This document shows, piece after piece, positions 27,282 through 36,377 of a stretch of DNA of 64,000 nucleotides. The translations under genes and the position numbers were made by a program. How positions within the stretch are numbered: position 1 is the first letter of the stretch; each line of letters opens with the position of its first letter. A model generated the notes under the pieces. The model was not told where the DNA came from, did not search any database, and worked only from the letters and a program-made list of their open reading frames with translations. The DNA comes from Streptomyces sp. CGMCC 4.7035 (lineage in GTDB: Bacteria > Actinomycetota > Actinomycetes > Streptomycetales > Streptomycetaceae): contig NZ_CP134053.1 in NCBI RefSeq assembly GCF_031583065.1, positions 7,605,001-7,669,000 on the forward strand, given 5' to 3'.

Positions 27282-29675
27282 ATGACGCACATCGACGCGG
27301 GCGCCGGACTGGATCCCGTGCACCCCGCGCCCATACCCGGGCGGACGCAAGGACTGTCCGCCGCCGAGGTGGCCGAGCGGGTCGCCCGTGGTGACGTCAA
27401 CGACGTTCCCGTCCGCAGCAGCCGCTCATTGGGCGAGATCGTCCGCGCGAACGTCTTCACCCGCTTCAACGCGATCATCGGCGTGCTCTGGCTGATCATG
27501 CTGTTCGTGGCGCCCTTCCAGGACAGCCTCTTCGGATACGTGATCATCGCCAACACGGGCATCGGCATCATCCAGGAGTGGCGCGCCAAGAAGACCCTGG
27601 ACTCCCTCGCGGTGATCGGCAAGGCACGGCCGACGGTGCGCCGGGACGGGGTCGCCGCCGAGATCGGCACGTCCGAGATCGTGCTGGACGACATCATCGA
27701 GATCGGGCCCGGCGACAAGATCGTGGTCGACGGCGCCTGCGTGGAGGCCGACGGGCTGGAGATCGACGAGTCACTGCTGACCGGTGAGGCCGACGCCGTC
27801 GTCAAACGCCCCGGGGACAAGGTCATGTCAGGCAGCTTCGTCGTCGCGGGCGGCGGCGCCTTCAAGGCGACCAAGGTGGGGCGCGAGGCCTACGCCGTCC
27901 AGCTCGCCGAGGAGGCGAGCCGTTTCACGCTCGTCCACTCCGAGCTGCGCAGCGGTATCTCCACGATCCTCAAGTACGTGACGTGGATGATGGTCCCGAC
28001 CGCGATCGGCCTGGTCATCAGCCAGCTCGTGGTCAAGCAGCACGGGTTCAAGGACTCCGTGGCCCGGACGGTCGGCGGCATCGTGCCGATGGTTCCGGAG
28101 GGACTCGTCCTGCTGACCTCCGTGGCCTTCGCCATCGGCGTCATACGGCTGGGCCGCAAACAGGTCCTCGTCCAGGAGCTGCCCGCCATCGAGGGGCTCG
28201 CCCGCGTCGACACCGTCTGCCTGGACAAGACGGGCACGCTCACCGAGGGCGGCATGGACGTCACCGAGCTGCGGCCGCTCCAGGGCGCCGACGAGACGTA
28301 CGTACGGAAGGTCCTCGGCGCCCTCGGCGAATCGGACCCACGCCCGAACGCCTCCCTCCAAGCGATCATCGACGCCTACCCGGACAGCGAGGACTGGCGC
28401 TGCACCGAGGCCCTGCCTTTTTCCTCGGCCCGGAAGTACAGCGGCGCGTCCTTCAGCGAGGGCAACGGCGAGTCCAGTTCGTGGCTCCTCGGCGCCCCGG
28501 ACGTCCTGCTGGACCCCGACGACCCGGCTCTGGCCGAAACCGAACGGCTCAACGAGCAGGGGCTGCGCGTGCTGCTGCTGGCCCGCGTCTCCCGGGACCT
28601 GGACGACCCCAAGGTCGGTGAGGGCGCCCGGCCCACCGCCCTCGTCGTCCTGGAGCAGCGGCTGCGCCCGGACGCCGCCGACACCCTGCGTTACTTCGCC
28701 GAGCAGAACGTCCACGCCAAGGTGATCTCCGGGGACAACGCCGTGTCCGTGGGCGCGGTGGCCGGAAAGCTGGGTATCGCGGGTGAGGTCCTGGACGCCC
28801 GGCGCCTTCCCGTCAATGCGGCGGAGATGGCGAAGTCGCTGGACAAGGGCACGGTGTTCGGGCGGGTCACGCCGCAGCAGAAGCGGGACATGGTGGGCGC
28901 CCTGCAGTCGCGGGGGCACACGGTCGCGATGACGGGCGACGGGGTGAACGACGTGCTCGCGCTCAAGGACGCGGACATCGGCGTCTCGATGGGCTCGGGG
29001 TCCGAGGCGACCCGGGCCGTGGCCCAGATCGTGCTGCTGAACAACAGCTTCGCGACGCTGCCGTCGGTGGTCGGCGAAGGCCGGCGGGTAATCGGGAACA
29101 TCACGCGGGTCGCCACGCTGTTCCTGGTGAAGACCGTGTACTCGGTGCTGCTGGCGGTGCTGGTGGTGTGCTGGCAGGTGGAGTACCCGTTCCTGCCCCG
29201 GCATCTGACGCTGCTGTCGACCCTGACGATCGGCGTCCCGGCCTTCTTCCTGGCGTTGGCCCCCAACAGCGAGCGGGCCCGGCCCCACTTCGTACGGCGG
29301 GTGATGCGCTACTCGATCCCGGGCGGGGTCGTGGCGGCGGTCGCCACCTTCGTGACGTATCTGATCGCCCGGCACTACTACACCGGCCCGGGCTCGCTGG
29401 ACGCGGAGACCAGCGCGGCGACCCTCACGCTCTTCCTGATCTCCATGTGGGTGCTGGCGATCATCGCGCGCCCCTACACCTGGTGGCGGATCGCCCTGGT
29501 GGCCGCGATGGGCGTGGCGTTCCTGGCCGTACTGATCGTTCCCTCGTTGCAGCACTTCTTCGCGCTGAAACTGGTCGGGGTGACGATCCCGTGGGTCGCG
29601 GTGGCCTCGGCGGTGGTGGCGGCGGCCGTCCTGGAGTTCCTGTGGAAGTGGGTCGACCGCCGTTTCCCGGCGTGA
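27282..29675 (+). CDS. P-type cation-transporting ATPase (CaxP/PacL-like)
   Basis: A 797-residue P-type ATPase. In order: actuator motif LLTGEAD, membrane motif GGIVPMVPEGLVLLTS (PEGL as in Ca/Mg-type pumps), phosphorylation site DKTGTLTEGG (Asp near residue 316), KVISGDNAVSV, and hinge TGDGVNDVLALKDADIGVSM. There are no N-terminal heavy-metal domains. The PMVPEGLVLLTS motif matches pneumococcal CaxP-type calcium exporters, so Ca2+ export is a reasonable inference, though unproven. TACCGT ends seven bases before ATG 27282, suggesting leaderless transcription. A terminator overlaps the stop. Confidence 0.92.
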   Translation: MTHIDAGAGLDPVHPAPIPGRTQGLSAAEVAERVARGDVNDVPVRSSRSLGEIVRANVFTRFNAIIGVLWLIMLFVAPFQDSLFGYVIIANTGIGIIQEWRAKKTLDSLAVIGKARPTVRRDGVAAEIGTSEIVLDDIIEIGPGDKIVVDGACVEADGLEIDESLLTGEADAVVKRPGDKVMSGSFVVAGGGAFKATKVGREAYAVQLAEEASRFTLVHSELRSGISTILKYVTWMMVPTAIGLVISQLVVKQHGFKDSVARTVGGIVPMVPEGLVLLTSVAFAIGVIRLGRKQVLVQELPAIEGLARVDTVCLDKTGTLTEGGMDVTELRPLQGADETYVRKVLGALGESDPRPNASLQAIIDAYPDSEDWRCTEALPFSSARKYSGASFSEGNGESSSWLLGAPDVLLDPDDPALAETERLNEQGLRVLLLARVSRDLDDPKVGEGARPTALVVLEQRLRPDAADTLRYFAEQNVHAKVISGDNAVSVGAVAGKLGIAGEVLDARRLPVNAAEMAKSLDKGTVFGRVTPQQKRDMVGALQSRGHTVAMTGDGVNDVLALKDADIGVSMGSGSEATRAVAQIVLLNNSFATLPSVVGEGRRVIGNITRVATLFLVKTVYSVLLAVLVVCWQVEYPFLPRHLTLLSTLTIGVPAFFLALAPNSERARPHFVRRVMRYSIPGGVVAAVATFVTYLIARHYYTGPGSLDAETSAATLTLFLISMWVLAIIARPYTWWRIALVAAMGVAFLAVLIVPSLQHFFALKLVGVTIPWVAVASAVVAAAVLEFLWKWVDRRFPA

Positions 29676-29732: not shown

Positions 29733-30668
29733 TTACTTCACGTCGACGTAGTCCGACGCGGCGTTCGCCGCCGGGGTCGTCGAGGTGCCCGCGAAGCTGA
29801 AGCGCCAGTAACCGTCGTAGTTCGCGATGGTGGTGGTCTTCAGGTTGCCGTACACGTCACCGGTGATCGTCTTGATCGTGGTCCAGGTGGTCGTGCCTGC
29901 CTTCATGAACTGCAGCTTGACCGCCTGCGAGCCGTAACCGGCGTACGCGTTGGTCTCCCAGTTGGCGCGGGTGAGCTTGCCGGTGGCGGTCAGGGTCTTG
30001 CCCTTGTAGACCGGCTCGGGGGAGGCGTTGACCGTCAGCTTGGAGTAGCGCTTGACCGAGGTGGTGGCGAGACCGCCCTGGTCGGCGTACCCGACCTTGC
30101 TCTCGTCGTACGTGGCGCTGTCCGGGTCCTGGCCGTTCCAGTCGATGGCCTCGGCGCCGGCGCTCCAGGAGCCCGCGTCGGCGTTCATGAGGTCGCCGTA
30201 CGCCGGGTAGACGTCGATGTTGCCCTTGCAGGTGGCGGTGGTCGACGTGCTCGGGGTGCAGGTGGCCGCGAGGTCGCCGAAGAGGATGTTGGTCGGGTCG
30301 TCGTAGGAGCCCTTGTAGATGTACGGGTCCGTCTCGAAGTCGGACGCGGTGATGTCGACGTCCGCGCCGTGCGTCAGCGTGTACGAGACCGGGATCGCGA
30401 CGTGGTTGCTGATGCCAACCGAGTACGACGAGCCGATCTTGAAGTTGGAGAAGGTGACGTCGATGGCGTAAGGGGTGCCCGCGGTCTCGGTGGCGGCGGT
30501 GAACGCGGCCTTGCCGGACGAGGAAGAAGTGGTGTGGGCAGCCTGCCAAACCTTCTCGGCTCCGTCACGGTGGGACGTGGCGGAGTCGGTGGCCTGCGCG
30601 GCCGGCACCGCGAAGGCGGAGAGAGCCAGGGCGCCGGAGACGGCGGCCACAGTGGCACGTATGCGCAT
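29733..30668 (-). CDS. Secreted protein, paralogue 1 of a three-gene family
   Basis: A 311-residue exported protein with signal MRIRATVAAVSGALALSAFA and a cleavage site after AQA. The N-terminal half (residues about 60-210) contains VSYTLTHGADVDI and CKGNIDVYP. The C-terminal 110 residues start at RYSKLTVNASPEPVYKGKTL and end DYVDVK, an Ig-like beta domain shared with the two next genes. Two cysteine pairs are likely (CTPSTSTTATC). Relatives are sometimes named calcium-binding, but no EF-hand is visible. The GGGGAA ribosome-binding site can pair with CCCC upstream. The role in the cell envelope is unknown. Confidence 0.82.
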   Translation of the reverse strand: MRIRATVAAVSGALALSAFAVPAAQATDSATSHRDGAEKVWQAAHTTSSSSGKAAFTAATETAGTPYAIDVTFSNFKIGSSYSVGISNHVAIPVSYTLTHGADVDITASDFETDPYIYKGSYDDPTNILFGDLAATCTPSTSTTATCKGNIDVYPAYGDLMNADAGSWSAGAEAIDWNGQDPDSATYDESKVGYADQGGLATTSVKRYSKLTVNASPEPVYKGKTLTATGKLTRANWETNAYAGYGSQAVKLQFMKAGTTTWTTIKTITGDVYGNLKTTTIANYDGYWRFSFAGTSTTPAANAASDYVDVK

Positions 30669-30815
30669 GCGTTCCCCAAGTGGAGAAAGGGGCCCACGGG
30701 TTGGCTTCACGTGGGGCCCGAGTTTCTGGCGAGTCTCTTGACTCGCGTGATCAGATCCACAAGGGAAGCGGATGGTTGTACGGACCCCGAATTTTTTTGC
30801 CACCGCAATCCGGCC
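30669..30815 (-). promoter_or_regulatory. Conserved structured leader of secreted paralogue 1
   Basis: On the minus strand: a CAAAAAAATTCG tract, a GTACAACC box, a GCGAGTC-N4-GACTCGC hairpin (30729-30746), and GGCCCC..TTGGGGAACG before the start, in which CCCC can sequester the GGGG of the ribosome-binding site. The same order of elements precedes the two paralogues. Confidence 0.5.
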
Positions 30816-30828
30816 ACCGGCCTCCAAG

Positions 30829-30882
30829 GTTCGGTGCCCGTGCCCCGGGCGGCGCGCGGGGCACGGGGCACGGGCACCGAAC
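30829..30882 (-). terminator. Terminator of secreted paralogue 2
   Basis: GTTCGGTGCCCGTGCCCC pairs perfectly with its complement over 18 bp, just after the stop at 30895. It is the strongest hairpin in the cluster. Confidence 0.8.
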
Positions 30883-30894
30883 GCTTACGTCATG

Positions 30895-31743
30895 TCACCG
30901 CACGTCGACGTAGTCGGCCGTCGCGGTTGCCGCCGAAGTGGCCGAGGTGCCCGCGAAGCTGTAGCGGAAGGAGCCGTCCGTGGACGCCTTGACCGTGGTG
31001 CTCAGGTTGCCGGTCGAGTTCGTCTTGATGGTCTTGACGGTGGTCCAGGTGCTCGTGCCCGCCTTCTTGAACTGCAGCTTGACGGGCTGGCTGCCGTAGC
31101 CCGCGTACTTGCCGCTCTCCCAGTTGGCGCGGGTCAGCTTGCCGGTGACGGTGATGGTGTTGCCCTTCTTCACCGGCTCGGGCGAGGCGTTGACGGTCAG
31201 CTTGGAGTAGCGCTGCACCGAGAAGCTCTTGGCGTTGTCCTTCTGGATGTAGTCGGCGTCCTTGGCCTGCGCGATCGCCCAGACCTTCCAGGTGCCAGCG
31301 TGCGCGTTGAGCAGGCGGCCGTCCACGCTCGCGTCGATCGTGAAGGTCCCCTTGCAGTTCGCGGCCGTGCTGCCGGCCGCGGTGCACTTGATCCGGTTCC
31401 CCTCGTTCGGCACGGCGCCGTTGTCGGAGTGGTCGATGTCGGTGCCGTGGTACAGCACCGCCGTCGCCCAGTCGATGCCGGAGTTGTCGGTGGCCGTGAA
31501 GGTGACCGCGAAGGTCCTCTTGGTGGTCGTGCCGAAGACGACCGCCTTGCCACCGTTGACGACAACGTTGGAGATCTTGGTGTCGCCGCTCGAGTCGTCG
31601 GCGGGCGACTTCCCCGCGATCTGCTGGACGCTCTGGGCGAGCGCGCCGACACCCGGGGCGTCGGCGGCCTGCGCGGCCGGGACGGCGAAGGCGGTCAAAG
31701 CCAGCGCGCCGGTCACGACGGCGACAGAGGCACGAATGCGCAT
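30895..31743 (-). CDS. Secreted protein, paralogue 2 of a three-gene family
   Basis: A 282-residue exported protein with signal MRIRASVAVVTGALALTAFA and an AQA cleavage region. The C-terminal domain (VQRYSKLTVNASPEPVKKGN to ADYVDVR) is close to those of its neighbours. The N-terminal domain is different: KISNVVVNGGKAVVFGTT, FTATDNSGIDWATAVLYHG and CKGTFTIDASVDG. The family therefore keeps a common C-terminal domain and leader but has swapped or diverged its N-terminal domain. The start is fixed by the signal peptide and a GGGGAA site. It has its own terminator and promoter region. Confidence 0.82.
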   Translation of the reverse strand: MRIRASVAVVTGALALTAFAVPAAQAADAPGVGALAQSVQQIAGKSPADDSSGDTKISNVVVNGGKAVVFGTTTKRTFAVTFTATDNSGIDWATAVLYHGTDIDHSDNGAVPNEGNRIKCTAAGSTAANCKGTFTIDASVDGRLLNAHAGTWKVWAIAQAKDADYIQKDNAKSFSVQRYSKLTVNASPEPVKKGNTITVTGKLTRANWESGKYAGYGSQPVKLQFKKAGTSTWTTVKTIKTNSTGNLSTTVKASTDGSFRYSFAGTSATSAATATADYVDVR

Positions 31744-31905
31744 GTGTGTTCCCCACGTACAAGGGGCACGCGGAGCGACTCTACGGCTTCCGCGATGCCC
31801 GGTCTGGTCGGTGGAGTCCGGGGACTCCACAAACCAGACCTGTGACGGAAGTGAAGGGTTGTGCGAATCGGTGAAGTTTTTTCGAATAAGCCTTTAGGGG
31901 GCGGC
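31744..31905 (-). promoter_or_regulatory. Conserved structured leader of secreted paralogue 2
   Basis: Minus strand order: TTCGAAAAAACTTC, CGCACAACCCTTCACTTCC, a hairpin with outer arms GGTCTGGT/ACCAGACC and inner arms GTGGAGTCC/GGACTCCAC (31801-31840), CGCGGAAGCCG, then GTGCCCCTTGTACGTGGGG directly before the start. It is nearly identical in plan to paralogue 3. Confidence 0.55.
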
Positions 31906-31968
31906 AGTTACCCTGTGCCGGTTCGATCGCGCACGGTCCGGTACGCGGGACACCCGCCTCACACGACA

Positions 31969-32012
31969 ACGTCGGCCTTCAGGACCACAATGCGGGTCTT
32001 GAAGGCCGACGT
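31969..32012 (-). terminator. Terminator of secreted paralogue 3
   Basis: ACGTCGGCCTTCA and TGAAGGCCGACGT pair across GGACC..GGTC and a short loop, 13 bp after the stop at 32025. Confidence 0.75.
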
Positions 32013-32024
32013 CGGTCGCGGGTC

Positions 32025-32948
32025 CTACTGGACGTCGACGAAGTCGGCCGTCGCGTTCACCGCGGGGGTGGTCGAGGTGCCCGCGAAGCTGTAGCGGAAG
32101 TAGCCGTCGGCGGACGCCTTGACGGTCGTCTTCAGGTTGCCGGTGGCGTCTGTCTGGATGGTCTTGAGGGTGGCCCAGGTGCTGGTGCCCTTCTTGCGGA
32201 ACTGCAGCTTGACCGGCTGGTTGCCGTAGCCCGCGTACTTGTTGGTCTCCCAGTTGGCCCGGGTCAGCTTGCCGGTGACCGTGATGGTCCTGCCCTTCTT
32301 CACCGGCTCCGGGGAGGCGTTGACGGTCAGCTTGGAGTAGCGCTGGATCAGCGTCTTGCCGAGACCGCCCTGCTCGGCGTAGCCGATCTTGGTGATGTCG
32401 GGGTTGGTCGCGTTCAGCTGGCCGTTCCACGCGATGGCCACGGCGCCCGCGTTCCACGAGCCCGCGTCCGAGTTGAGCAGCTCACCATCGGCCGGGTAGA
32501 TGTCGACGTTGCCCTTGCAGGTGGCGGTGGTCGACGAGGTGACGGTGCAGGAGGCAGGCTCCTCGCCCCCCAGGAAGTTGGCCGGGTCGCTGAGCGAACC
32601 CTTGTAGAGGATCGGGCCGGTCATGAAGTCGGCCGCGGCGATGTCCACGTCCGCGCCGTGCGTCAGCGTGTACGACACCGAGAAGGCGACGTGGTTGGTG
32701 GTGCCGACCTTGTACGCCTTGCCGATCTTGAGACCGGAGAAGGTGACGTTCAGGGGGTACGGCTTGGGATCGGCCGCAGTGGCGGCGCTGAACGCGGCCT
32801 TGCCCGACGTCGTGTGTGCGGCCTTGACGAACTTCGCGGCGGCGTCGCGGAAGGACGGGGCGGAGTCGGCGGCCTGTGCGGCCGGCACGACGAGAGCGGT
32901 CAGGGCCAGGGCGCCCGTCACGACGGCGACGGAGGCACGAATGCGCAT
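32025..32948 (-). CDS. Secreted protein, paralogue 3 of a three-gene family
   Basis: A 307-residue exported protein, signal MRIRASVAVVTGALALTALV with AQA cleavage. It aligns end to end with paralogue 1 (VSYTLTHGADVDIAAADF, CKGNVDIYPADGELLNSDA, KIGYAEQGGLGKTLIQRYS), and its C-terminal domain ends ADFVDVQ. Paralogues 1 and 3 share both domains, so paralogue 2 between them carries the divergent N-terminal domain. GGGGAA lies before ATG 32948. Each member has its own leader and terminator rather than forming an operon. Confidence 0.82.
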   Translation of the reverse strand: MRIRASVAVVTGALALTALVVPAAQAADSAPSFRDAAAKFVKAAHTTSGKAAFSAATAADPKPYPLNVTFSGLKIGKAYKVGTTNHVAFSVSYTLTHGADVDIAAADFMTGPILYKGSLSDPANFLGGEEPASCTVTSSTTATCKGNVDIYPADGELLNSDAGSWNAGAVAIAWNGQLNATNPDITKIGYAEQGGLGKTLIQRYSKLTVNASPEPVKKGRTITVTGKLTRANWETNKYAGYGNQPVKLQFRKKGTSTWATLKTIQTDATGNLKTTVKASADGYFRYSFAGTSTTPAVNATADFVDVQ

Positions 32949-33095
32949 GTGATTCCCCACGTTCACAAGGGGCACACGGGGCGGCTCGACGGCTTCCGCG
33001 GTGCCCGTTCTGCGGAGTCCAGCTGACTCCAGCAGAACAGACCCGAGGTGGAAGTGAAGGGTTGTGCGAGTGTGCGAAATTTATTCGAAAAATGG
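32949..33095 (-). promoter_or_regulatory. Conserved structured leader of secreted paralogue 3
   Basis: Minus strand: TTCGAATAAATTTCG, CGCACAACCCTTCACTTCC, hairpin GTTCTGC..GGAGTC/GACTCC..GCAGAAC (33007-33038), CGCGGAAGCCG, and GTGCCCCTTGTGAACGTGGG before the start. Stem bases differ from paralogue 2 while pairing is kept. Confidence 0.55.
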
Positions 33096-33212: not shown

Positions 33213-36200
33213 TCAGTCGAACCAGCGGTCCCGCGCCAGTTCCTCCGTGCGGGACGGGTCCTCCAGCAGGGCCGCGACCTCGAAGCGGCGTGGCCACTGG
33301 CCCGCCGCCCAGGCGAGGCCCGCCGCCACGCCCTCCAGGGTCGCCGCGTGCAGCACGCCGTCCGTCGTGAGGCGCCAGTCGATCTCCACGTCGTCGACCA
33401 CGAGTTCCTCGTGTTCGACGTACGACGCCGGGGTCGCCGGGCCGAGCAGGATCCGGACCGACTCCGGTACGTCGTGCTCGGCGCCCTCCGACGTCACCTC
33501 GCCCGTCACCGACTCGCTCAGCCTCCGCACCTGGAACAGCTCGGCGAGGTCCGCGGCCCGCGTCGGACGGACCGGCAGCAGCGGGACGCTCTCGGTGAAG
33601 GGCAGCAGGTCCGGCGAGTCGACGACCACGGCGTCGGACGCGTCCACGACGGCCACCCGGCCGTCGACGACCGCGCGCAGCTCGTCCGGCAGGGTCACCT
33701 GTTCCGGGTCGAGGTCGGCCAAGGCGGTGTAGAGGGCGTGGAGTTGGGCGGCGGAGACGGGGCGGTCCGGGTCGGCGAGGCGGTCCAGCAGCTCGGCGGC
33801 ACCGCCGGGCTCTTCGAGGAGCGCGGCCACGGACGTCCGCACGCCGAGGGCCCGCAGCACCTGCTCGTCGTCGAAGCCGGTCGCGTCCGCCTCGTCGTAC
33901 AGGCCGTACAGGAGCGGGTCGCCGCCGGCGGCGCGCAGGCCGGCGGGGCGGCGGCCGTCGAGCACCGGGTGGCCGCGCAGCCACCAGGCCGTGTACGGCC
34001 GTACGACCTCATGGGTGCCGTCCGGCAGCAGGATCCGCACGGGCTGGGTGAGCGCGTCCCGCAGCGGGGGCTGCGAGAGCAGGGCGAGGGCCTGCGGCCA
34101 TTGGTCGTCGTCGACGAGGTCCAGGTCGCGCACGGCGACGATCTCGGTCGCCACCGGCGGTACGGGCGTGTCGGGCAGCCGGTCCAGGACGTCCTCGCAC
34201 CACACGTCGACGGCGTCGAGGAGTCCGACGTCGTCGGGTTCGGCGAAGTCCGAATCGCGCGGCTCCAGTTCGTCCGGGTCGAGGACGACGTCGGTGGCGC
34301 GGACGAGGGCGAAGTTCGCGAGCACGCCGCAGGCGGCCAGCGGCTGTTCGCCCCAGCGCTCGGCCAGCTCGGCGTCCACGAAGGCGAGTTCGCCCTCGCG
34401 CATGACGCGCGCGAAGTAGCTGCCGGGGAGGACGAGTTCACCGGCGGGCGCCAGTTCGCCGTCCTCGTCGGGCAGTGCGAGCGCGCCGAGCCAGGGCTCG
34501 TCACCGGGTTCGAGCCCGGCCTCGCGGACCAGGGCGAGCACGCTGTCGGCCAGCTCCTCCGCGTCCAGGCCCTCCTGGTCCCAGCCCGGACCCTCGTCGT
34601 CGAGGGAGGCGGCGACGGCGGCCCGCACCTGCGGGGTGGTCAGGACGGCACGCGGAGTGGCCGGCAGCGCGCCGAGCTTCTCCAGGAGGGAGTGGGCGGC
34701 GTCCGGGTGGGCGACCTTCAGGCCCAGCCGGGCCAGGACGTCGGGGGCCACCGGCGGCCCGTCGACGGTCGGCAGCAGGACCTGCCGGGGCCCGATGGTC
34801 GTCCGTGCTCCCCCGGTGCCGAACGCCTGGGAGGTGGCCCCGGCCAGCGGCACCGGCAGACCGGACAGCCGGTCCGGGTCGACCCCGGCCAGGCTGTCGT
34901 ACAGCCGCCACCACCACTCGGGTTCCTTCTCCAGACCCGCGAGCCGGTCGACCGCCTCGGTCAGCGGCACCCGGGCGACGCCCAAAGTCCGTAGCTCCAC
35001 GCGGCGTTCGAGGCCGGCCGGCAGCAGGCTGGGCAGCACCTCGGCGAGGACCCGTACGGTCTCGGCGCCGGCGCCCTCGACGATCTCGGCGTCACGGGGG
35101 CGCAGCGCCTCCGGCAGCTCGGAGTCGTCACCGGGGTCGTTCGCGGGCGGCAGGAACGCGGTGCGCGGCAGCCGGTCGAGGACGGCCCGGCGCAGGGCGC
35201 CGTCCAGCTCGCCCTTGCCGAGCGCGCCCGGGACCAGGTCGATGACGCCGGCCGTCACCGGGCGCCAGGCGGCGAGGAGCTCGGCGTACGCGTCGGCCGC
35301 GCGTTCCACCAGGAAGTCGGTGAGCGGACCGGGGGCGGCGTGCCGGCGGCTGGTGTCCAGCGGGAGAGAGGCGATCAGCAGGGCGGGCACGCCGAGCGCC
35401 TCGTCGCTGGGGGTGGGCGCGTGCACGACCGGCGCGGTGCGCGGCCGGGCCGGGGTGCCGTCGGCGTCCACGGGAACGGCCCAGGTGACGGACCAGTGGG
35501 CCCGCAGCCGCTCCTCGACCGGGCGGTCGGCGAGGAGGTCGGGGGTGAGGGGGCCGTGGTGGGAGACCGTACGCCAGCGGGTGGTGCCCTCGCGGGAATC
35601 CTCGACGACGGTGTCGGTGAGGACGGTGTCGGTGCCTTCGGTGCGGCGGCGCAGGGTGCGCGGCTCCTGTCCGCCAATCTCCACGACGACTTCCTGGAGA
35701 CCGGGGAGGGCGAGCAGGAGGGCGTCGTCGACCGCGCCGAGCAGCCGCTCGGCGAGATCCTCGGCGGCGGTGTCGCGCAGCGGGAGGATGACGACGGTGT
35801 CGTACGGGTCGGGGGCGGTGCCCTCGGCCGCGAACGGCAGCCGCAGCAGCGGTACGTGCCCGTCGCGGCGGCGGATCTCGTCGCCGAGGCCGGGGCTGTG
35901 CCGGGCGGTCTCGGTGGCCAGTTCGCGGGCCTCGGCCAGCGACCAGCGGACGCCGCCGTGCCGGCCGACGACGGCGGGTTCGTCGCTGACGGCGAGAACG
36001 GCCGCGAAGCCGACGCCGAAGCGGCCGACGGCGCCTTCGGGGACCTCGCGCTTGGCGGAGGCGCGCAGGGTCGACAGCGACTCGACGCCGGTCGCGTCGA
36101 GGGGGGCGCCGGTGTTGGCGGCGACGAGGACACCGTCGCGGAGGGTGAGCCGGAGCCGGCCGGGGACCTTCGCCCGGGCCGCCGCGTCGGCGGCGTTCTG

Positions 36201-36377
36201 CGCGAGCTCCACGACCAGCCGGTCGCGGTACCCGCCGAGGACGAGGTCCTCCTCGGCGTTGGCGTCCTCGCGGAACCGGGCAGGACTGGTGGCCCAGGCG
36301 TCCAGCACCCCGCGCCGCAGCCGGGCGGTGCCGAACGGGTCCGCACCCTCGGCTGCCGGCGTCACGAACTTGCTCAC
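33213..36377 (-). CDS. Very large GHKL (Hsp90-like) ATPase-domain protein
   Basis: A 1054-residue protein. Only the first 200 residues are recognisable: a GHKL ATP-binding fold with N-box VVELAQNAADAAARA, G1 NTGAPLD and G2 AVGRFGVGFAAVL, similar to sacsin- or HATPase_c_3-type domains. The remaining 850 residues are acidic, with no known motif and no membrane segments. Often annotated as a molecular chaperone, but it lacks Hsp90 middle and C-terminal signatures. ATG 36377 (MSKFVTPAAEGADPF) is preceded by GAGGATGAAGC-type purine-rich sequence. It is monocistronic with a strong terminator. Confidence 0.85.
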   Translation of the reverse strand: MSKFVTPAAEGADPFGTARLRRGVLDAWATSPARFREDANAEEDLVLGGYRDRLVVELAQNAADAAARAKVPGRLRLTLRDGVLVAANTGAPLDATGVESLSTLRASAKREVPEGAVGRFGVGFAAVLAVSDEPAVVGRHGGVRWSLAEARELATETARHSPGLGDEIRRRDGHVPLLRLPFAAEGTAPDPYDTVVILPLRDTAAEDLAERLLGAVDDALLLALPGLQEVVVEIGGQEPRTLRRRTEGTDTVLTDTVVEDSREGTTRWRTVSHHGPLTPDLLADRPVEERLRAHWSVTWAVPVDADGTPARPRTAPVVHAPTPSDEALGVPALLIASLPLDTSRRHAAPGPLTDFLVERAADAYAELLAAWRPVTAGVIDLVPGALGKGELDGALRRAVLDRLPRTAFLPPANDPGDDSELPEALRPRDAEIVEGAGAETVRVLAEVLPSLLPAGLERRVELRTLGVARVPLTEAVDRLAGLEKEPEWWWRLYDSLAGVDPDRLSGLPVPLAGATSQAFGTGGARTTIGPRQVLLPTVDGPPVAPDVLARLGLKVAHPDAAHSLLEKLGALPATPRAVLTTPQVRAAVAASLDDEGPGWDQEGLDAEELADSVLALVREAGLEPGDEPWLGALALPDEDGELAPAGELVLPGSYFARVMREGELAFVDAELAERWGEQPLAACGVLANFALVRATDVVLDPDELEPRDSDFAEPDDVGLLDAVDVWCEDVLDRLPDTPVPPVATEIVAVRDLDLVDDDQWPQALALLSQPPLRDALTQPVRILLPDGTHEVVRPYTAWWLRGHPVLDGRRPAGLRAAGGDPLLYGLYDEADATGFDDEQVLRALGVRTSVAALLEEPGGAAELLDRLADPDRPVSAAQLHALYTALADLDPEQVTLPDELRAVVDGRVAVVDASDAVVVDSPDLLPFTESVPLLPVRPTRAADLAELFQVRRLSESVTGEVTSEGAEHDVPESVRILLGPATPASYVEHEELVVDDVEIDWRLTTDGVLHAATLEGVAAGLAWAAGQWPRRFEVAALLEDPSRTEELARDRWFD

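Follow-up and report, generated by a model that had tools for sequence, protein, structure and literature searches.

A probable extracytoplasmic function-type promoter with a predicted start-site hairpin before exported-protein genes of Streptomyces

Introduction

The described systems closest to the element reported here are the promoters of SigE/RpoE-type extracytoplasmic function (ECF) sigma factors, the stabilising 5'-terminal hairpins of the ompA and ermC type, and the leader riboswitches and thermosensors that hide a ribosome-binding site. The -10 box of RpoE is TCTGA. An AAC in the -35 box is given as a common mark of ECF promoters and CGT as the common -10 box in a passage of PMC3933326, and the -35 box of Streptomyces coelicolor SigE is said to match the Escherichia coli sigma-E consensus GGAACTT (PMC10771440). 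The present element is the repeated leader of three tandem genes encoding exported proteins, located on the minus strand of a 64,000-nucleotide stretch of Streptomyces sp. CGMCC 4.7035 (NZ_CP134053.1, positions 7,605,001 to 7,669,000). This stretch, hereafter the window, was drawn from an 8.09 Mb single-contig genome.

The family leaders share with SigE/RpoE-type promoters the AAC in the -35 box and one preferred spacing. They differ in that the -35 box is CGTACAACC and not GGAAC, and in that the targets are exported proteins. The GGAAC-type -35 box of the S. coelicolor SigE (CseBC) regulon was not found in the family, which carries CAACC, and the family -10 box RTCTSA is different from the common CGT. 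As in the ompA and ermC type, a stem would lie at or near the 5' end and its pairing is kept under sequence change; unlike in that type, the 5' end is here a predicted one and the hairpin has a fixed position relative to a single promoter class. In having two covarying hairpins upstream of the ribosome-binding site the leaders resemble those of riboswitches and thermosensors, but the family has no conserved Shine-Dalgarno (SD) pairing, no conserved core in the second hairpin and no Rfam match, and 21 of 60 leaders are too short for the length cut applied to that hairpin.

We consider it probable that the leaders carry an ECF-type promoter common to exported-protein genes throughout the genus, with a covarying hairpin at the predicted start site, a candidate sigma factor that can be named, and protection of the mRNA at its 5' end.

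Promoter of the family leaders

An A/T tract, (T/C)ACAACC, a hairpin with a GAGTC/GACTC core, a second possible hairpin, GGGGAA and ATG were identified in this order in each of the three leaders, as the original prediction had described, and the outer arms of the first hairpin differed between the paralogues. The leaders had persisted while the proteins diverged (Table 1). The same order recurred in relatives throughout the genus, and the block is therefore not a product of chance. In the homologues the block was far clearer than in the window and read CGTACAACC, 17 unconserved bases, ATCTGATC, 4 bases, GAGTC-AACA-GACTC, CCAC and GATCAC. The family consensus was CGTACAACC, 17 unconserved bases and (A/G)TCTGATC.

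The spacer was judged on 47 family gene starts selected by protein sequence. Among these, 38 were counted, six had no promoter, two carried ACAACC-17-ATCTG with weaker flanks and one was a false internal start. Every one of the 38 leaders that had a -35-like box showed a distance of exactly 17 nucleotides to TCT(G/C); 35 of the 38 were distinct at 85% identity. CAACC was almost invariant. A second set of 60 leaders (62 before removal of near-identical ones) was chosen by promoter, with the spacer of 17 required and the stem not; this set served for the stems and not for the spacer, because the spacer was a selection criterion. Information content in the 60 leaders peaked at offsets -3 to 5 and 23-30 and was low between them. 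Upstream A-tracts stood at offsets -29/-28 and -18 to -15, about one helical turn apart, and the GATCAC that follows the first stem, at offset 52-57 counted from the -35 box, was conserved even where the -10 box varied.

The family promoter thus has an AAC-containing -35 box and a defined -10 box at one spacing, though the latter is RTCTSA. The fixed, unconserved 17-nucleotide spacer, the ECF-like boxes and their recurrence before unrelated exported-protein genes led us to read the A/T tract, CACAACC and the left outer arm of the first hairpin (hairpin I) as promoter DNA. As part of the explanation as a whole, it is likely that the block is an ECF-type sigma promoter and that most of the repeated leader is a DNA signal.

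A covariance-model search of the leader, suggested with the original prediction as a check, matched widely within the genus. The model of the block (R1) gave matches at E <= 1e-5 in 93 of 197 order-sampled genomes, all in one of six genera. At the looser E <= 1 a match was obtained in 117 of the 121 genomes of the genus, many of the weak ones looking like chance hairpins.

Recurrence of the promoter beyond the family

In 48 genomes without the family, the pattern with spacers of 12-22 allowed gave 42 matches, compared with 2 for the reversed pattern. Twenty-one were at spacer 12, 17 at spacer 17 and 4 at others. All but one of the spacer-12 matches (20/21) were one recurring site, and five of the 17 spacer-17 matches were repeats of a single site upstream of an RNase III gene, of which one copy was read. 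Of the other 12 spacer-17 matches, 11 preceded apparent signal-peptide genes. When GTCTCA was used as the -10 box in 295 genomes, 67 matches were detected (reversed pattern, 5), with 41 at spacer 17 and, next, 8 at spacer 12. Loci were read for 30 of these 67, namely 23 of the 41 with spacer 17 and seven with other spacers. An apparent signal-peptide gene followed in 21 of the 23 spacer-17 loci, 18 identified by script and three by eye; it did not in the other two.

The family promoter would accordingly be one of a genus-wide set, preceding genes of the FG-GAP, PD40, FlgD_ig with weak FG-GAP, and D-Ala-D-Ala carboxypeptidase (Peptidase_S11) classes, and one gene (L178) that we take to be SapA-like, for which the family search gave no match. 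The other names, including RNase III, were obtained by a family search on one or two members each.

In the genome of the window itself, the variable-gap pattern gave chance-level totals (43 matches and 37 for the reversed pattern), and the 9-base -35 box with up to two mismatches gave 37 matches compared with 8 reversed. Loci were read for 30 of the 37. Besides the window promoters they included two genes that we judge to be clear exported-protein genes, encoding an FG-GAP protein (L184) and a D-Ala-D-Ala carboxypeptidase (L186), and one sigma gene. The signal-peptide script also flagged L202, where the match lies inside an open frame, and L211. A text search of the literature, made partly with the -35 letters, found no paper carrying the promoter motif.

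In two other loci (L286 and L300, near position 1501) the promoter was followed by about 100 nucleotides with no obvious exported-protein gene and with an inverted repeat at the end. These transcripts are possibly small RNAs.

Hairpins and predicted transcription start

The three window leaders folded more stably than dinucleotide shuffles, with z-scores of -2.54, -4.81 and -3.02. The inner stem of hairpin I covaried over the 60 leaders to a degree reached in 0 of 2000 shuffles, which ignore kinship, and occurred as GAGTC/GACTC, GAGCC/GGCTC, GGGTC/GACCC and GAACC/GGTTC. The 100% pairing of this stem in the A2/R1 alignment is uninformative, since a 5-bp stem was required in its construction. 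The second hairpin (hairpin II) covaried to the same degree (0/2000 shuffles) in 35 of the 39 leaders above the length cut. The covarying hairpins of the original prediction thus stood for the inner stem and hairpin II, but hardly for the outer arms. These arms, TGATC/GATCA, overlap the -10 box and covaried little. They paired well in paralogues 2 and 3, and in the 18 leaders with a variant left arm the right arm did not follow (p 0.21). As RNA they were rejected for their little covariation across the family.

An ECF start about 11 nucleotides past the first T of the -10 box would fall on the first base of the stem. With an assumed start at offset 33-35, the stem lay within 3 nucleotides of the 5' end in 52-55 of the 60 leaders, compared with 31-33 for offsets 28-32 and 5-10 for offsets 38-39.

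The ribosome-binding-site lock that had been proposed on the basis of CCCC and GGGG was not supported. SD/anti-SD pairing was possible in 51 of 60 leaders, where letter shuffles gave 48.9 (p 0.27), and showed no significant covariation in them (p 0.25), so that an SD-sequestering switch was rejected with the pairing at composition level. A riboswitch was rejected as well: by eye, hairpin II contained no conserved core, and there was no Rfam match. Rfam gave 0 matches in the window at gathering cut-offs, and in eight relatives, at E up to 10, five chance-level matches (E 0.26 to 7.3), all below the gathering score; this agrees with the original prediction, in which the leader could not be matched to a described motif. 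A pseudoknot of GAUCAC with GUGA in loop II was also considered, GTGA being present in 15 of 39 loops against 2.4 in shuffles, and was dropped because many leaders have no partner.

An exported family unrelated to this one (FlgD_ig with weak FG-GAP; L139, L142, L174 and L175) had hairpins of different sequence, which begin inside the -10 box. A compensatory change from GATC/GATC to GACC/GGTC was found in that family.

Candidate sigma factor

The candidate is a SigE-family ECF gene (TIGR02983; G000:C1:309778-310350) with a Sigma70_r2 match at 309892-310086. It was named because the same -35 box and spacing as in the family promoters precede it. One of the 37 promoter matches in the genome lies just upstream of the gene, and by coordinates this was the only pair within 1.5 kb when the 37 matches were compared with the 52 Sigma70_r2 matches of the genome. 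Orthologues were present in 60 of 61 genomes, and each of the 30 loci read carried upstream CGTACAACC, or a form of it changed at one base, followed by 17 nucleotides and GTCCAAC. The shared -35 box and spacing, with a different -10 box, are a good reason for testing this candidate sigma factor, not proof.

The candidate presumably resembles SCO3613 of S. coelicolor. PMC12175524 names SCO3613 as a sigma factor whose expression differs in co-culture, and PMC9739823 names it as a sigma factor in protein-abundance data. The passages on SCO3613 in these two papers contain nothing on its targets.

Contrary evidence and alternative explanations

Several observations weigh against the promoter explanation. 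The -10 box of the sigma gene itself (GTCCAA) differs from RTCTSA, its match in the own genome needed 2 mismatches, and by our estimate about 0.04 such sigma coincidences are expected in that genome before conservation is counted. The leaders are related, with a median nearest-neighbour identity of 0.82, which the shuffles ignore. Over all 60 leaders the outer arms gave p 0.087 for summed pairs and p 0.034 for full matches, so some pairing there is possible. A start at offset 26-27 also gives a near-terminal stem, in 45-48 of 60 leaders, and 17 of 60 short windows of the family beat shuffles at 5%. The start-site hairpin was not general in other regulon genes: among 17 non-family rows, which include one spurious second site in L177, two beat shuffles (5%) from the predicted start and eight from inside the -10 box, four of these from one gene family. 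This difference suggests that some palindromes are DNA features, or that the start lies further upstream in those genes. The conserved GATCAC after the stem lacks an explanation under the promoter model. The signal-peptide script was crude and lenient and also scored four of the seven loci with other spacers, two of them, with spacer 20 (L282) and spacer 16 (L301), standing before seemingly genuine exported-protein genes. The outer-arm figures over all 60 leaders and the lenient script temper our confidence.

The same promoter may instead be read by a different ECF factor, whether SigE, SigU or one that is still uncharacterised, and the candidate sigma gene would then be no more than one of its targets. 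The deviating -10 box of that gene and the 52 Sigma70_r2 matches in the genome agree with this, and overlap between ECF factors has been described for SigE targets in a passage of PMC6767563. Since the candidate forms the only match/sigma pair within 1.5 kb and its upstream site was conserved in every locus read, we hold this alternative to be somewhat short of an even chance.

In another explanation, the palindrome from the -10 box to about +20 would be bound as DNA by a dimeric regulator, and an ECF promoter would be blocked or remodelled by this protein. The hairpin core stands at a fixed distance from the -35 box in most family members, 29 nucleotides after ACAACC, and by eye also in the L139/L175 gene family, and the TGATC/GATCA arms are conserved mainly in sequence. 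However, compensatory changes alter the palindrome at its centre, where the different gene families have no sequence in common, and the palindrome is absent from many regulon promoters, which makes such an operator unlikely.

Quite improbable is a cis-acting leader RNA transcribed from upstream of the CACAACC box, with the box and both hairpins as RNA and with hairpin II or the CCCC/GGGG stem controlling access to the ribosome site: it would suit the covariation of the inner stem and hairpin II, the pairing of the outer arms through the -10 region in paralogues 2 and 3, their full matches above shuffles, the double changes (at least one) in three of five outer pairs of A2 and the hairpins that start at offset 27, inside the -10 box, in one other gene family, but a strictly fixed and unconserved spacer is difficult to account for if it is RNA, the right outer arm does not track the varying left arm, the SD lock is at composition level, 21 of 60 leaders are below the hairpin II cut, and the same boxes precede unrelated genes, several with no clear hairpin.

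The earlier observation was hence confirmed and its interpretation partly supported. As for a cis-acting RNA element, two stems do covary, while the leader elements that precede the inner stem, from the A/T tract to the left outer arm, behave as promoter DNA. Because the boxes behave in this way and a conserved ribosome-site lock was not found, translation control is not the best reading, and shared transcription with a 5'-end hairpin is preferred.

Locus and protein family

The coordinates of the features are collected in Table 1.

Table 1. Features of the three paralogous genes and their leaders (positions in the window)
Feature	Positions	Strand	Description	Basis
Paralogue 3, -35 box	33060..33068	-	CGCACAACC	sequence
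Paralogue 3, -10 box	33037..33042	-	GTCTGT, spacer 17 nt from -35	sequence
Paralogue 3, hairpin I inner stem	33014..33030	-	GGAGTC-AGCTG-GACTCC	sequence; predicted start ~33029-33031
Paralogue 3, possible hairpin II	32970..33006	-	GGGCAC...GTGCCC	sequence and family covariation
Paralogue 3, ribosome-binding site	32953..32958	-	GGGGAA	sequence
Paralogue 3, gene	32025..32948	-	exported protein, 307 aa, predicted beta-sandwich (Ig-like) domains	open reading frame, AlphaFold2 and Foldseek
Paralogue 2, -35 box	31857..31865	-	CGCACAACC	sequence
Paralogue 2, -10 box	31834..31839	-	GTCTGG, spacer 17	sequence
Paralogue 2, hairpin I	31811..31830	-	GTGGAGTC-CCCG-GACTCCAC	sequence; predicted start ~31826-31828
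Paralogue 2, possible hairpin II	31764..31800	-	GGGCATCGCGGA...TCCGCGTGCCC	sequence
Paralogue 2, ribosome-binding site	31749..31754	-	GGGGAA	sequence
Paralogue 2, gene	30895..31743	-	exported protein; most divergent of the three	open reading frame; 57% identity to paralogue 3
Paralogue 1, -35 box	30774..30782	-	CGTACAACC, exact consensus	sequence
Paralogue 1, -10 box	30751..30756	-	ATCTGA, spacer 17, exact consensus	sequence
Paralogue 1, hairpin I	30731..30744	-	GAGTC-AAGA-GACTC	sequence; predicted start ~30743-30745
Paralogue 1, possible hairpin II	30689..30719	-	GGGCCCCACG...CGTGGGCCCC	sequence and family covariation
Paralogue 1, ribosome-binding site	30672..30677	-	GGGGAA	sequence
Paralogue 1, gene	29733..30668	-	exported protein, 311 aa from ATG	open reading frame; 67% identity to paralogue 3

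The C-terminal domain was common to all three paralogues. The AlphaFold2 model of paralogue 3 (mean pLDDT 79.7) consisted of beta-sandwich domains, and Foldseek matched it to Ig-like and transglutaminase folds with low TM-scores. Searches with the family proteins gave nothing above cut-off in Pfam, no match in NCBIfam at E 0.01 and no sequence match in the PDB at E 1; in the Pfam and NCBIfam searches the query for paralogue 1 carried one extra leading residue. PF18968 was present in some of 120 listed relatives.

Relatives of the family were detected in 102 of 150 genomes of the same genus, often as tandem copies. Among the matches listed, the named loci, found with the same extended query for paralogue 1, were from Streptomyces, as were nearly all named proteins, with one from Actinacidiphila. 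A fourth relative of the C-terminal part was located at the other chromosome end, inside a longer open frame (L004; G000:C1:145007-145624). The neighbours of the family in the window (27282-29675 and 33213-36377; named by eye) were a gene like those of P-type ATPases and a large one of unknown kind, and sequences like the ends of these neighbours could be seen next to several of the homologous loci in other genomes.

Some tandem members in other loci (L020:2481, L031:2490, L007:279, L008:334 and L009:318) had no promoter and no first hairpin and kept the ribosome-binding site, as if co-transcribed with the upstream gene. The family gene L024:374, located behind a terminator-like repeat, kept the first stem and a second hairpin and had lost the -35/-10 block.

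Discussion

The leaders most likely mark an ECF regulon that has yet to be characterised and that has a hairpin at the start site. In the proposed mechanism, the leader opens with A-tracts, the -35 box CGTACAACC, 17 bp and the -10 box (A/G)TCT(G/C)A(T). RNA polymerase with one ECF sigma factor would start about 6-7 bp past the -10 box, at the left foot of the 5-bp GAGUC/GACUC hairpin, and the mRNA would be born with this hairpin no more than about three bases from its 5' end. More than half of the family leaders would form a second hairpin between this one and the ribosome-binding site. The promoter would put the amplified genes under one common control, and the most likely role of the hairpins is to protect the 5' end and prolong the life of the mRNA.

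A further possibility, which we regard as doubtful, is that promoter and transcript form one unit, in which a promoter-locked palindrome puts the hairpin exactly at +1 and gives a closed, protected 5' end to the transcripts of an uncharacterised genus-wide ECF regulon for exported proteins. In that case, a single sigma factor would determine how secretome mRNAs are made as well as how long they last.

Many Streptomyces ECF factors have no known targets, and here a promoter signature, exported-protein targets and one widely conserved candidate sigma factor can be linked. The start-site hairpin would also allow a clean test of whether the structure at a 5' end determines how long an mRNA lasts, in an organism used for protein secretion.

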